The notes under the pieces are model-generated. The model did no database searches. It was not told the origin of the DNA and saw nothing but the letters and a program-made list of their open reading frames with translations. The position numbers were made by a program, and so were the translations under genes. Below are positions 5,908 through 36,024 of a stretch of DNA of 64,000 nt, one piece after another. The stretch's first letter is position 1. Every line of letters starts with the position of its first letter. This DNA comes from Myxococcus stipitatus (GTDB taxonomy: Bacteria; Myxococcota; Myxococcia; Myxococcales; Myxococcaceae), in NCBI RefSeq assembly GCF_038561935.1, contig NZ_CP102770.1, forward strand, positions 1,488,001-1,552,000. The letters run 5' to 3'.

Positions 5908-8421
5908 ATGCCGTCACCTCCGGAAGAGGTGGATCCGCTCGCGGACCTGCGCGACAGCCTGGACCTGGAGGACACTGGCGTTCAAGCGGCCCCCCCCGCC
6001 CCCCCCGCCGCTGCCCTCCCCAGGCCTCAGCCCAAGCCCCCGCCCGCGGCGACACCACTCGCTGCTCCGCCCCCTCTGCCCCCGCGCCGTCCGGCCGCAT
6101 CCCCGGCCTCCGCGTCGGTCGGCACCGGCACACCCAGGACCCCGGCGACGACGCCGGCCCCCGTCCCTCCCGCCTCCGCGGCCGCGCGTGGGGTGAGGGT
6201 GCCCGGCAATGACCCGTTCAACGAAGCCCCCGAGCCCCGCATGCCCATGGGGGCCTCGCCGGAGGAGAAGCTCGAGTACTTCCGGACGGTGATTCGCCAG
6301 AAGACGGAGACGCTCGCGCGGGCGCGCACGCTGTACGCGGAGCGCGACGGCGAGGTGACGGGCCTGAAGCAGTCGCTGACCCAGGCGCGCAAGGAGGCCG
6401 CGGAGTCGAAGGCCCAGCTGGGGGCGGTGAAGGACGCGCCCGCGAAGCTGGTGCAGACGGCGGAGGCGCTGGCGGCGGCGGAGGCTCGGGCGGCGGAGGC
6501 CGAGGCGAAGCTGGCGGCCGTCGAAGCGGAGCTCGCCGGGGTGGAGGCGGACCGCAAGGATTTGTCGCGGGCGCTCGCGGAGGTGGAGTCGGACGTTCCC
6601 CGGCTGACGGCGGAGCTCCAGGAGGAGCGCGAGTCGCGGGGCGCGGTGGCCGAGGAGCTGGTGGGCGCCAAGGAGGCGCTGTCGCTGGCGCAGGACCGCG
6701 TGGCGGAGCTGGCCGCGGAGAAGTCCGAGTCGCAGGGCGCGCTGGAGGCCGTGCAGGAGCAGTACCAGCAGGTCCTCGCGGACGTGGAGCGGCTGGGCGG
6801 CGAGCTGGAGGCGATGACGGCGGAGCGCGACTCGCAGAGCCTTCGCGCGGAGCAGGTGGAGGCGGCGCTCGCGGAGGCTCAGACGGCGCTGAGCGCGGTG
6901 GAGAGCGAGAGCGACTGGTCGAAGAGCTCGCTGGAGGAGGCGCAGGGCCGAGCGCGGACGTTGGAGGAGGAGCGCGACGCGGCGCGGGGCCAGGCGCGGA
7001 CGTTGGAGGAGGAGCGCGACGAGGCGCGACGGCAGCTCGCGGTGGTGGAGGAGGGGCTGCGCACGGTGCAGGCGCAGGTGGCGGAGCTGGAGAAGGGGCT
7101 GGCGCTGAAGGACGCCGAAATCGTGGGGCTGCGCGCGGCGCTGTCGGCGCGCACCACGGAGGCGGCGGAGGTGCCTGTGTTGCGGCAGGCGCTGGAGGAG
7201 CGGGCGGCGGAGCTGGCGCGGCTGGCGTCGAGGCTGGAGGCGGAGGCGGCGCGGGCGGCGGAGCGGACGCAGGCGTTGGAGGAGGGGCTGGCGCAGGCCG
7301 GTGAGCGGGCGCAGGTGGCGGAAGGGGAGGCCGCGGCGCTGAAGGAGGCGCTGGAGGCGCTGGAGGTCGAGCAGGTGGCGCTGCGGGACCGCATGGAGGC
7401 GGACGCGGCGGCGCTGGGCGAGGCGGCGCAGCAGGCCGAGGCGAAGGTGGGCGAGGTGACGGCGGCGCTGGAGGCGGCGCAGGTCGAGCGGGAGGAGCTC
7501 AAGAAGCAGGTCACCGCGGCGGAGATGAAGGCGGCGACGACGGACGCCGAGCGCGTGGGGTTGGCCGCGCGGGTGTCGATGTTGGAGGCCGCGTCGTCGC
7601 AGCGCGAGGTGGAGCTGGCGCGGGTGCAGGCGTTGTTGGCGCAGGCGCGGGAGGATGGGGCGCTGGAGCAGGTGCGGCGCGAGGCGGCGGAGACGGAGCG
7701 CGCGGACCTGAAGGTCCAGGTGGCGGAGCTGGAGGCGCGGGCGGACGCGCTGATGGCGGGGCAGGGCGGCACCGAGGCGGAGCTGGCGGAGCTCCGAGAG
7801 GAGCTGGAGGCCACGCGCGCGGAGGCGGACAAGGCCGAGCGGTTCCAGCAGCGCTTGAAGATGCTGGAGGGCGCGCTGGAGACGGCCAAGGCGGAGGCCG
7901 CGCGGACGGTGCAGGCCGCGCAGACGGCGCAGGCCCACGCGAAGAAGGAAGCGGAGGAGCAACAGGCCCGCGCCGAGGCCGCGCATGCGGAGAAGCTGCG
8001 AGAGGTCGAAGCGAAGCTGGCGCAGGTGGAGGCCGGCTACGAAGACAAGCTGAAGGACGTCGAAGCGAAGCTCGCGCAGGCGGAGTCCACGAGCGCGAGC
8101 AAGCTCAAGGACCTCGAGGCGAAGCTCGCCAAGGCCGAGGCCGCGAGCAAGTCGGCGAAGCCATCTTCGAGCGATGCAACCAAGGTCCAGGAGCTGGAGG
8201 CGAAGCTGGCCCAGGCCGAGGCGGCCCTGGCGGAGGCCCGGAGCGCGAGCACGGGCTCAAGCGGTCCTCCGTCCGACTGGGAAGCCGAGCGCGACGGACT
8301 CAAGGCGGACGCGGCCAACCTGAAGCGCAAGCTGGTGGCGGCCGAGACAGCGCTCGAAGCCGCGGCTGGCTACAAGTCGAAGATCGCCAAACTGGAAGCG
8401 CAATTGAAGGGCCGGAAGTAA
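5908..8421 (+). CDS. Long coiled-coil protein with proline-rich N-terminus
   Basis: An 837-residue protein of unknown function. Residues 1-100 are rich in Pro/Ala and probably disordered. A short conserved-looking segment (EEKLEYFRTVIRQKTETLARAR, about 113-134) leads into about 680 residues of continuous heptad-type coiled coil dominated by Ala, Glu, Leu, Arg and Lys. Internal duplications are visible: the RTLEEERD unit occurs twice near residues 350-375, and KLKDVEAKLAQAE-type units repeat near 695-740. There is no ATPase motif, so it is not an SMC protein, and no membrane segment. A cytoskeletal, polarity or scaffold role is possible but unproven. It is followed after 13 bp by hemW. Confidence 0.8.
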   Translation: MPSPPEEVDPLADLRDSLDLEDTGVQAAPPAPPAAALPRPQPKPPPAATPLAAPPPLPPRRPAASPASASVGTGTPRTPATTPAPVPPASAAARGVRVPGNDPFNEAPEPRMPMGASPEEKLEYFRTVIRQKTETLARARTLYAERDGEVTGLKQSLTQARKEAAESKAQLGAVKDAPAKLVQTAEALAAAEARAAEAEAKLAAVEAELAGVEADRKDLSRALAEVESDVPRLTAELQEERESRGAVAEELVGAKEALSLAQDRVAELAAEKSESQGALEAVQEQYQQVLADVERLGGELEAMTAERDSQSLRAEQVEAALAEAQTALSAVESESDWSKSSLEEAQGRARTLEEERDAARGQARTLEEERDEARRQLAVVEEGLRTVQAQVAELEKGLALKDAEIVGLRAALSARTTEAAEVPVLRQALEERAAELARLASRLEAEAARAAERTQALEEGLAQAGERAQVAEGEAAALKEALEALEVEQVALRDRMEADAAALGEAAQQAEAKVGEVTAALEAAQVEREELKKQVTAAEMKAATTDAERVGLAARVSMLEAASSQREVELARVQALLAQAREDGALEQVRREAAETERADLKVQVAELEARADALMAGQGGTEAELAELREELEATRAEADKAERFQQRLKMLEGALETAKAEAARTVQAAQTAQAHAKKEAEEQQARAEAAHAEKLREVEAKLAQVEAGYEDKLKDVEAKLAQAESTSASKLKDLEAKLAKAEAASKSAKPSSSDATKVQELEAKLAQAEAALAEARSASTGSSGPPSDWEAERDGLKADAANLKRKLVAAETALEAAAGYKSKIAKLEAQLKGRK
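5990..6006 (+). repeat. Two adjacent C8 homopolymer tracts in the coiled-coil gene
   Basis: Two runs of eight cytosines (5990-5997 and 5999-6006) are separated by one G inside the Pro/Ala-coding 5' part of the coiled-coil gene. Slippage of one base in either tract would frameshift the protein after about 30 residues. Confidence 0.8.
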
Positions 8422-32315: not shown

Positions 32316-32348
32316 TACGGTACCGGATGTCCATACGGTAGCGTATGG
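32316..32348. promoter_or_regulatory. Candidate TetR operator region
   Basis: TACGGTACCG (32316-32325) is repeated as TACGGTAGCG (32334-32343), 18 bp apart. CGGTACCG (32318-32325) is a perfect palindrome and CCATAC-N6-GTATGG (32331-32348) a perfect inverted repeat. This arrangement in the gap between divergent genes suits two TetR dimers. Inference. Confidence 0.55.
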
Positions 32349-32411
32349 AGGGGATGTAACGTGCCGCGCCGCTGGACGCCAGGAGCGGGCTCCTCCAGAC
32401 TTCGAGGGACG

Positions 32412-33038
32412 ATGAGCCGCGCTTCTTCCCGCCCCCGGAGCCCCGCAACCCTTCGTCCTTTCGAGGAGATACGTGACCGCCGTCGGGGGCCGGGGCTCAC
32501 CGCCGAGGACTGGGCGGATGCGGCGCTGTGGAGCTTGGAGGAGGGGGTCGACGCGCTGTCGGTGGAGCGATTGGCCCGCAAGCTCGGGGTGACGAAGGGG
32601 AGCTTCTACTGGCACTACGAGGGGCGGCCTGCCTTGCTTCAGGCCGCGCTGGCGCGCTGGGAGCAGCTGGCCACGGAGGAGGTCATCGCCCGTCTGGAGG
32701 AGTTGCCGACGCCGGAGGAGCGGTTGCAGCGGCTGTTGGCCGTGACGTTCGACCCCGCGCCTGCGGGGAGGCTCGAAGTGGCCATCGCCGCAGCGGCCGC
32801 GAATCCGCTCATCCAGCCCGTGGTCGCGCGGGTGTCGCGGCGACGTATCGACTACCTCGTGTCGCTGTACCGGGCGCTGGGGGTGTCAGCGAGGGAGGCC
32901 CGCGCGTGGGCACTCCAGGCGTACTCCACGTACGTAGGGCTGTTGCATCTGACCATCACGAGTCCGGAGACACTGCGCTCCCCTCGCGAGCGCGCCGATT
33001 ACGTGAAGCATCTGGCGAAGGTGTTGATGCCCGCGTGA
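32412..33038 (+). CDS. TetR-family transcriptional regulator
   Basis: A 208-residue TetR-type repressor. The N-terminal 30 residues are an Arg/Pro-rich tail. The helix-turn-helix spans about residues 40-80 (ALSVERLARKLGVTKGSFYW, then HYEGRPALLQAALARWE). The C-terminal ligand domain is all-helical and has no assigned ligand. It likely represses itself and the divergent DUF6463/DUF2867 membrane protein. Confidence 0.88.
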   Translation: MSRASSRPRSPATLRPFEEIRDRRRGPGLTAEDWADAALWSLEEGVDALSVERLARKLGVTKGSFYWHYEGRPALLQAALARWEQLATEEVIARLEELPTPEERLQRLLAVTFDPAPAGRLEVAIAAAAANPLIQPVVARVSRRRIDYLVSLYRALGVSAREARAWALQAYSTYVGLLHLTITSPETLRSPRERADYVKHLAKVLMPA

Positions 33039-33730
33039 GGGCGCAGCGCCTCCCGGGAGCTCACCGTGAAGCACCTGGTGTGGCGCTTGTCACTGGCGCC
33101 TGATGGGACCGTTCTTGCGGTACGATTGCCGAATTGCGCCTGCATGGGTGCAGTGCTGCCCGCATGAGTGGATTGGGTCGAGCATGGTTCCATCCAGCGG
33201 CTCATCGCATGAGGGATGGAGCTGGCCTGGCGCTCGTCACAGATGCCCGTATCGGTCGCGGGCAGTGATGCCTGTGTGAAGGGCTTGGTCTGGGCGCGGT
33301 GCCATCCAATGGCTCGCCGCAGGAGGGAAGAAGTTGGCTTGGCGCTCGTCACAGATGCCCGTATCGGTCGCGGGCAGTGATGCCTGCGTGAAGGGCTTGG
33401 TCTGAGCGCGGTGCCATCTAATGCCTCGCCGCATGAGGGAAGGAGTTGGCTTGGCGCTCGTCGCAGATGCCCGTATCGGTCGCGGGCAGTGCTGCCTGTG
33501 TGACGGGCGTGGTCTGGGCGCGGTGCCATCCAATGCCTCGCCGCAGGAGGGAAGGAGCTGGCTTTGTGCTCACTGCTGACGACTGCATCGGATGCTGTCG
33601 GTGATGTCGTGAGTGCGTCTTTCCGAGGCTCTGTTCCGTCTGCCGAGTCGCGCCAGGAGGACGCCCGTGTCCGGCACGTTGCCGGTGGCGCCCTCCTGGT
33701 TGTCCACGAAAAGTGTGTGGTGCTGTCCGC
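33039..33730. other. 692-bp gene-free region built of tandem repeats
   Basis: Apart from the 112-bp repeat array I see no credible gene. Reading frames on the minus strand across the repeats exist in all three phases because the 112-bp period is not a multiple of three, so they are chance frames. Confidence 0.7.
33129..33690. repeat. 112-bp tandem repeat array
   Basis: Three well-kept units at 33241-33352, 33353-33464 and 33465-33576, with degenerate copies before (about 33129-33240) and after (to about 33690). Units 1 and 2 differ at 7 of 112 positions. Each unit starts AGATGCCCGTATCGG and contains the hairpin TGCCCG-N9-CGGGCA. The period of 112 does not preserve a reading frame, so the array is not protein-coding. 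Confidence 0.85.
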
Positions 33731-35947
33731 CTACTCTGGATGCGAGGTCGTCTCCGGCATGCCTTCAGCGGAGGGCGCCAGCGCGCTGCTGTATGTGGCC
33801 GTGAGGGTGGCGTTGGCGGCAGGCGTCAGATAGCCGTGCGCCCTGGCGCCTCCGTCGGACCAGGAGGCCCAGTTCCACGTCGTGCCGCCGCTGACCTGCG
33901 GAGATGGCGCGGTGACGTTGAGCGTGTAGCGCTCCCACGACTTGACGTTGGCGGGTGTGACGAAGCTGGTGCCGTTGACGTCGATGGTCAGCCCCGGCGG
34001 CTCCGACTGAATCGTCACATCGACGATGTGCGGCAGGAGGTATCGCGACACCGTGGTGCTCCGCCCCTTCGAGTCCGTCGCGGTGAGCAGCACCTCCACG
34101 TAGTTGGTCGTCACCGCGGGAAGGTCCTCGGGCTGCGGCGCGGTGAGCGGGACGTTGTTCCCCGACGTGGGCGGCAGGAGCGGGTGGTTGTGCTCGTTGT
34201 GATGCAAGAGCGCGCGCCATGAGAGCGAGCTCGCCGGGAGCGTGCCGTCCTCCGCGTCCGTGGCGGTCCCCGTCAACACCAGCGGCTGGCCCGCGTAGAA
34301 GCGCAAGCTCTCCAGCGGCCCCGTGATGACCGGCACGGGCGCCGTGTTGCCCGAGTCGATGCGCTGCGTGGCTGCCTGAACCGACGAGGTCCCTCGTGCA
34401 TCGCGCACCGTGAGCGAGGCCGTGAAGGTCCCCGTCGCGGTGTACACGTGGCTCGTGGTGGGCGTGGTCGTCTCCACCGCCGCGCTGCCATCTCCGAACG
34501 TCCAGATGTACCTCAGCGCATCACCATCCGGGTCGCTGCTGGTGCTCCCGTTGAACTGCACAGTCAGCGGAGTGGCCCCATCGGTGGGCGTCGCCGTGAA
34601 GGCCGCGACGGGCGGGCGATTCGTCGCACCCGTGAAGTTGATGCGCCGCACCTCTCCGCCCCCCGCGTACGTCGTGTAATAGAGCGCCGTCCCATTGGGC
34701 GAGGGACCGAAGCGCAGCATCACCGCGGAGCTGTTGCCCAGTCCCGTCGCGAACGCGCTCACGGACACCGCGCCCCCCGAGCCTCGCGTCAGCTTGAACA
34801 CCTTCCCGCAGACGTAGTCGCTGAAGAAGTACGCGTTGTCGTCCGAGGCCGCCCACGCCCCCGGAGGCGCGAAGGCGCCACCTGTAATGGAGTTGCAACC
34901 CTGGAACGGAGAGGGTGACGGGTTGGTCCCGTGCTTGTAATCGAAGATTGGATTCGTCATCCCCGCGGGCGGCGCTCCACAGTTGGTGGTGGAGTTGTTC
35001 GCGCAGTGCCCCTCGCGCGTATTCCATCCGTAGTCCGCGCCCTTGATGCCTTCGTCAATCTCCTCCCAGACGCCCTGGCCCACGTCGTTGATGAAGAACG
35101 TGCTCGTGCCCGGCTGGAAGGCGAAGCGGAACGGATTGCGCAACCCCGTCGCGTAGTTCTCCTGACACGGCCCGGTGCCCGACGGCACGCCCGCGGGATT
35201 GCCACACCGGCGGCTGCCAGCCGACGCGAACCACGGGTTGTCCGTGGGGATGGTGCCGTCCTTGCGGATGCGCAGCATCTTCCCCAGCATCACGTCCAGC
35301 CTGCGAGCGGTGGTGTTCTGTCCCGCGCAGCGCGTGGGGTCGCCAAGCTGGCAGCCGCCGTCACCCACGCTGATGTAGAGCAGCCCATCCGGGCCGAAGT
35401 GCAGGTCCCCGCCGTTGTGGTTGCCCGCCGTGGAGGGGATGTTGTCCAGCAGCACCACCTCGCTGGCCGGGTTGATGATGCTGTTGCCCGACAAGAGGAA
35501 GCGCGACACGCGATTCACCGCCACGTTGGCGATGTTCGTCGAGCACGTGTTGAACTTGTTGAACGTGTAATAGAGATACACGTGCGCGTTGCTGATGAAG
35601 TCCGGGTCCACCGCCACGCCCAGCAGGCCCCGCTCCGAGTTGGTGCAGAGCTTGGAGGACAGGTTCAGCGCCGGCGTCGCCAGCAGCACGCCTCCGGAAT
35701 ACACCCGCAGCTGTCCGCCTTGCGTGGTGATGAGCAGCCGCCCGTCCGGCGTGAAGGCCAGCGCGGTGGGCTGCGCCACCGGCGTCACCTGCGTGTCCGA
35801 ATAGGACGGCGGCAACGTGGCGGCGGTCTGGATGGAGTCCGTTCCCTCCGGGCTCGCGGCCCCTTCCGTCGAAGGTTCCGGTGCACACGCCAGGGCCAGC
35901 AGGAACAACGGCCACAACCGAGCGAAACGACAAGTCCAAGGTGTCAT
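33731..35947 (-). CDS. PQQ-type sugar dehydrogenase lipoprotein with PKD domain
   Basis: A 738-residue exported protein. The signal peptide ends LALAC (Cys about 21). Residues about 45-440 form a six-blade beta-propeller of the soluble glucose/aldose sugar dehydrogenase type: the catalytic-His segment GNHNGGDLHFGPDGLLYI and the downstream ATGLRNPFRFAF are typical. A PKD domain follows (about 445-535, DGDALRYIWTFGDGS), then further beta domains ending SWSDGGARAHGY. PQQ binding is inferred from the family. ATG 35947 is preceded by GGAG. An AT-rich stretch at about 35980-36010 probably holds the promoter. Confidence 0.85.
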   Translation of the reverse strand: MTPWTCRFARLWPLFLLALACAPEPSTEGAASPEGTDSIQTAATLPPSYSDTQVTPVAQPTALAFTPDGRLLITTQGGQLRVYSGGVLLATPALNLSSKLCTNSERGLLGVAVDPDFISNAHVYLYYTFNKFNTCSTNIANVAVNRVSRFLLSGNSIINPASEVVLLDNIPSTAGNHNGGDLHFGPDGLLYISVGDGGCQLGDPTRCAGQNTTARRLDVMLGKMLRIRKDGTIPTDNPWFASAGSRRCGNPAGVPSGTGPCQENYATGLRNPFRFAFQPGTSTFFINDVGQGVWEEIDEGIKGADYGWNTREGHCANNSTTNCGAPPAGMTNPIFDYKHGTNPSPSPFQGCNSITGGAFAPPGAWAASDDNAYFFSDYVCGKVFKLTRGSGGAVSVSAFATGLGNSSAVMLRFGPSPNGTALYYTTYAGGGEVRRINFTGATNRPPVAAFTATPTDGATPLTVQFNGSTSSDPDGDALRYIWTFGDGSAAVETTTPTTSHVYTATGTFTASLTVRDARGTSSVQAATQRIDSGNTAPVPVITGPLESLRFYAGQPLVLTGTATDAEDGTLPASSLSWRALLHHNEHNHPLLPPTSGNNVPLTAPQPEDLPAVTTNYVEVLLTATDSKGRSTTVSRYLLPHIVDVTIQSEPPGLTIDVNGTSFVTPANVKSWERYTLNVTAPSPQVSGGTTWNWASWSDGGARAHGYLTPAANATLTATYSSALAPSAEGMPETTSHPE

Positions 35948-36024
35948 GGAGCTCTCCGGGGGGAGGGTCATGAAGCACCTTGGATTTGCTTGTTAATCTT
36001 GATTTTCGCGAGTCTGAAACAGGC

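Follow-up and report, generated by a model that had tools for sequence, protein, structure and literature searches.

Bacterial minisatellites and VNTR loci belong to a kind of feature that has long been described (PMC2884548). The loci of the MLVA type treated in that source are intergenic and consist of imperfect head-to-tail copies, each measuring from tens of bp to around a hundred; they occur in a single lineage and are explained by slippage or recombination. The array reported here is of the same make, but its copies have diverged beyond the 90% identity applied there. A further likeness is offered by VNTR3239 (ETR-F) of Mycobacterium tuberculosis, whose tandem repeats fill the region between rnc and fpg1. 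According to PMC2734929, this region is hundreds of bp long in the M. tuberculosis complex (279-358 bp among the members listed) and only a few bp long in relatives (6 to 54 bp among the other mycobacteria listed). There, repeat length was linked to the expression of the downstream gene. The two loci differ in that the mycobacterial genes are co-directional, with units of 55 and 79 bp upstream of fpg1 and an effect on expression, whereas the genes flanking the present array converge. In the mutation accumulation study of Myxococcus xanthus, gains and losses of tandem-repeat units made up 27 of the 39 indels, with short units of up to 16 bp (PMC11069108). Literature searches on myxobacterial VNTR or long noncoding repeats returned no matching paper, and those on REP or interspersed repeats with Myxococcus gave unrelated matches only. 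This particular locus may thus be undescribed, though its kind is already known.

Setting and architecture of the 112-bp array

The window, i.e. the whole stretch of 64,000 nucleotides of Myxococcus stipitatus DNA that was analysed, contains an intergenic gap of 692 bp (33039-33730), the length already given in a preliminary description of the locus. The array is located in this gap, where a TetR-family regulator gene and a glucose/sorbosone-dehydrogenase-like gene converge with their 3' ends. G014, G013 and G008 designate the three nearest relatives examined, with one genome compared per species.

32330..32349, no strand: palindrome TCCATACGGTAGCGTATGGA, 63-82 bp upstream of the TetR start
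32412..33038, plus strand: TetR-family regulator gene (Pfam TetR_N, E 4.3e-9); orthologs in G014, G013 and G008 are 99, 98 and 89% identical at the amino acid level
33025..33038, plus strand: coding end of the TetR gene, TGATGCCCGCGTGA, corresponding in the alignments to the unit start TGATGCCTGTGTGA
33068..33093, plus strand: weak, possibly decayed piece (26 bp) of a further copy
33150..33261, plus strand: unit u1, first 78 bases diverged and last 34 identical to u2; 23/112 differences from u2
33262..33373, plus strand: unit u2, 7/112 differences from u3
33374..33485, plus strand: unit u3, delimited by in-register comparison and TRF
33486..33571, plus strand: unit u4, truncated after 86 bases where the similarity stops; 10/86 differences from u3
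33731..35971, minus strand: glucose/sorbosone-dehydrogenase-like gene with a PKD domain (Pfam GSDH, E 9.8e-39; PKD_4, E 8.7e-20); same neighbour in G013, G014 and G008

The TetR gene was found (E 1e-30) in 14 of the 61 genomes searched, its own included, and a scan of contigs with the TetR protein detected distant relatives only (best 51% identity). In G011 and G022, the spacer sequence (L204, L209) that precedes the TetR gene on the side of the dehydrogenase resembles, by eye, coding sequence of the opposite strand over its last 400-500 bp. An example reading ends in VCFVDVEQQE, as if the C-terminus of the dehydrogenase were longer there than in the window.

In the 112-bp register the tandem array consists of four units, three of them full (33150-33485) and one cut short (33486-33571). 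TRF called it at 33206-33571 with a period of 112, 3.3 copies, 91% matches and a score of 613, while the best score among 500 dinucleotide shuffles of the 692-bp gap was 60. With at least two head-to-tail copies, a unit in the range of roughly 10 to 100 or more bp and a signal above chance, it has the makeup of a minisatellite. The three 112-bp units announced in the preliminary description, with 7 differences in 112 in one neighbouring pair, were recovered as such (u2 against u3). The array is real, but narrower than the span of 33129-33690 originally attributed to it. To the right of 33571 (33572-33730) the sequence is unrelated and resembles the unit no more than shuffles do (score 16, equalled or bettered by 204 of 300), and to the left of 33150 nothing unit-like was seen except the weak piece at 33068-33093 (score 27, equalled or bettered by 3 of 300 shuffles). 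Decay had been described on both sides; it is present on the left, in u1 and weakly further left, whereas the right-hand end, u4, is truncated and not decayed.

All four units differ mutually, at 7 to 36 of 112 positions. All 23 differences between u1 and u2 fall within the first 78 of the 112 positions (P 7e-5 if evenly spread), and comparison of each base with the base 112 further on showed this zone of divergence to be followed by an identical tract of 47 bases. Such a mosaic fits exchange between copies or duplication with shifted ends, which lends partial support to the homogenisation proposed earlier. No sign was seen of an expansion going on now, as near-identical units are lacking and the closest pair (u2/u3) is 6% apart.

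Protein coding was rejected, in agreement with the preliminary description: 112 is not a multiple of three, the 176-aa frame of the minus strand has no Pfam match, and the GC content by codon position is flat in the array (0.67/0.61/0.66) compared with 0.71/0.53/0.86 in the TetR gene.

Sister genomes and the origin of the unit

The converging genes are spaced by 692 bp here, in comparison with 162 bp in G014, 156 bp in G013 and 30 bp in G008. The idea of a variable-length locus is borne out to the extent that the spacer differs strongly in length between species. Each unit opens with a version of TGATGCCTGTGTGA, corresponding to the last codons and the stop of the TetR gene. In the alignments, the ancestral repeat unit starts within the TetR gene, at its final 11-14 bases with the stop, and the single-copy counterpart of the unit in the sister genomes is made of this gene end plus the spacer. 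Local alignment of the unit with the G013 spacer, spanning the TetR end and most of the unit, scored 56 (maximum of 29 in 300 shuffles); the scores were 44 for G014 (best of 300 shuffles, 30) and 34 for G008 (best of 300 shuffles, 28), to be read with the caveat that short GC-rich spacers align ambiguously. Among the 13 relatives with the TetR gene, the unit beat 100 mononucleotide shuffles in four (G013, G008, G014 and G019) and not in nine, the match in G019 covering just the TetR end. For the final 34 bases of the unit (CGCTCGTCACAGATGCCC...), G014 offers just a partial counterpart, and a clear one is lacking in both G013 and G008. When the TetR end of the window itself was searched with its flank, the best match fell outside the expected place, and the proposed origin thus rests on the sister genomes and the alignment. 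Blastn gave the appearance of a clean insertion of 540 bp, lying between 33042 and 33585; this reading was rejected, since finer alignment finds diverged unit sequence in the sister spacers.

G014 displays its own tandem duplication of the TetR end, of 37 bp (16-mer with 1 mismatch; 0 of 60 shuffles below 3). Together with the homology of the unit to the TetR end and spacer of the sisters, this indicates that each lineage has rebuilt the spacer in its own way, the 112-bp array being the version of this one. Fourfold sites of the TetR gene differ from those of the window at 21 of 131 in G014 and 21 of 130 in G013. Since u2 and u3 differ less (7/112, 6%), the duplication that separated them is likely younger than the split from the sister species; u1 is likely older, or faster changed, than u2 and u3.

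From these data, we consider it highly probable (about 0.84) that a gene end was duplicated in tandem with its spacer, that the copies then diverged and to some extent exchanged sequence, and that the result is a noncoding minisatellite or VNTR-like locus specific to this lineage. In an ancestor, the last TetR codons and stop would have been duplicated in tandem together with the downstream spacer. Further slippage or unequal exchange in the 112-bp register would then have led to about four units, among which divergence went along with partial sequence exchange. The presumed mechanism is replication slippage or RecA-type exchange, and selective neutrality of the array is taken as the default assumption.

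Occurrence in the genome, the genus and the order

The preliminary description had proposed to look for the unit elsewhere in its own and in related genomes. Outside the array nothing was detected in the own genome beyond short, chance-like matches (best 0.143), and at E 1e-4 the unit was present in 1 of the 145 genomes of the order, namely its own, and in none of the 144 others. The unit is locus-specific and non-dispersed, as is typical of a minisatellite. No second place in the own genome was found that would assign it to REP/BIME or another class of dispersed palindromic repeats. It also differs from a CRISPR array, as the similarity runs through the whole 112-bp unit and unique spacers are lacking. 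A mobile or viral element was rejected, with 0 exact matches of a 24-base junction pattern in viral contigs.

The rarity of such arrays was assessed by a TRF census of 100 stretches of 20 kb of the own genome plus the window (~2.06 Mb; two of the stretches overlap by ~2.7 kb). Of 199 arrays, 45 had a period of at least 30, and in two of these the period is not a multiple of three: the 112-bp array and a 32-bp array of 1.9 copies with a score of 77. The 112-bp array is thereby the sole sizeable long-period array of this sort in ~2.06 Mb, a fifth of the genome, and such arrays are therefore not a routine product of this genome. Elsewhere in the window, a cluster of in-frame tandem repeats with periods of 18, 21, 27, 42 and 54 is located at 6458-8148, as is typical of a coding repeat region.

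Of the 27 genomes that represent the genus, 14 contain another palindrome, TGGAANGARCGTTCCTTCCA, and none contains the reversed pattern used as a control; TGGAANGARCGTTCCTTCCA was not found in the own genome nor in those of G013, G014 and G008. At the six loci read (L295-L300) it occurs in tandem arrays with a period of 46-110 bp and up to 14 copies, which have a common core and locus-specific filler and look, from their sequences, like a dispersed, iteron-like palindromic family. In G020, the orthologous TetR spacer (L206:1969-2297, minus strand) harbours its own, unrelated tandem array, with periods of 48 and 97, built on TGGAANGARCGTTCCTTCCA. Like the array described here, these dispersed arrays have palindrome-bearing tandem units (about 46-110 bp), and one of them lies in a TetR spacer. 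They differ from it in that their core is common to many loci and genomes; the best match to TGGAANGARCGTTCCTTCCA in the 112-bp array has 6 mismatches.

Competing readings and biological meaning

The structures relevant to a possible function of the array are the following.

33244..33264, 33356-33376 and 33468-33488, no strand: stem TGCCCG/CGGGCA, three copies at the unit junctions, without sign of conservation
33653..33699, no strand: GC-rich hairpin outside the array; fold z of -3.1 on the plus and -5.4 on the minus strand in 68-nt folds

The stem was correctly noticed early on, but the hairpin that it was taken to form in each unit is weakly founded. Isolated 30-mers carrying the junction stem gave fold z values of -1.8 and -2.3 (two folds), while whole-unit folds on both strands (eight folds) ranged from -1.31 to +1.26, like shuffles. 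The stem is altered in G014 and absent from the spacers of G013 and G008, and a conserved per-unit hairpin is not supported. A repeated small RNA gene, for which a length near 100 nt and the hairpin would speak, is the least probable of the readings considered and is not supported: besides the shuffle-like folds, the three Rfam matches (E up to 5) are all far below the gathering score, and in relatives the unit was not found outside the TetR/dehydrogenase spacer. A scan of 32900-33900 for promoters of the sigma-70 type and for intrinsic terminators gave no site resembling either. Judged by sequence, the units do not have the structure, the conservation or the promoter link of a small RNA gene array. 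It is hardly more credible that the array is an assembly artefact. Tandem copies are a usual spot of misassembly, but these copies are all mutually different, unlike what artefactual copying of one unit would give, and the chromosome is assembled as a contig of 10.1 Mb.

The regular spacing and the short palindrome at each unit junction could suggest an array of protein-binding sites, bound e.g. by a nucleoid protein or by the TetR repressor encoded next to it. The core ATACG-N4-CGTAT of the palindrome TCCATACGGTAGCGTATGGA precedes the TetR gene at the same position in all 13 relatives, making TCCATACGGTAGCGTATGGA the probable operator of the neighbouring TetR protein. It is absent from the array, where the best match has 8 mismatches in 20 positions, as in shuffles, and a TetR-binding array is not supported. 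Given also the loss or change of the junction stem in the sisters and the lack of dispersed copies in the own genome, binding sites of any such protein appear very improbable. Somewhat less so, though still unlikely, is a functional variable-number spacer, in which the number of units would tune expression, either by altering where the TetR transcript ends or how stable it is, or by affecting how the two converging transcripts interfere. The position between converging genes would suit such a role, as would the displacement of the conserved hairpin, and repeat number is tied to expression in the case of fpg1 of M. tuberculosis as reported in PMC2734929, with the repeats upstream of the gene there. 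Against it, the array shows no conservation beyond what common descent explains, the units are 6-20% different, and promoter-like or terminator-like sites were not found. Its more specific form, a tunable spacer whose unit number sets both the length of the TetR 3' tail and the collision with the dehydrogenase transcript, and hence the levels of both, is a little more doubtful again.

The part of the gap that does appear conserved is the hairpin at 33653-33699, which is nearly identical in the sister species G013 and G014 according to the alignment, and has no T run. Taken over the whole gap, its energy fails to beat all shuffles. A general claim of terminators in these spacers was dropped, as three of the 13 relatives had a best 50-mer that beat all 20 shuffles, and that of the 695-nt stretch of the window did not. 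The hairpin is a probable shared transcription stop between the converging genes. It is located about 615 bp from the TetR end here, compared with about 75-80 bp in G013 and G014.

The array is most likely neutral and ordinary. With a minisatellite derived from the gene end, the sole likely effect would be that the stretch from the TetR stop to the hairpin is lengthened to about 615 bp, giving the TetR transcript a longer 3' tail. The significance of the finding is small: together with the sister genomes, the locus offers a clean example of a spacer between converging genes growing by repeated duplication of a gene end. If the copy number varies within the species, the array would be usable as a typing marker, and should the number of repeats influence how strongly the neighbouring genes are expressed, the locus would join the small set of such cases known in bacteria.
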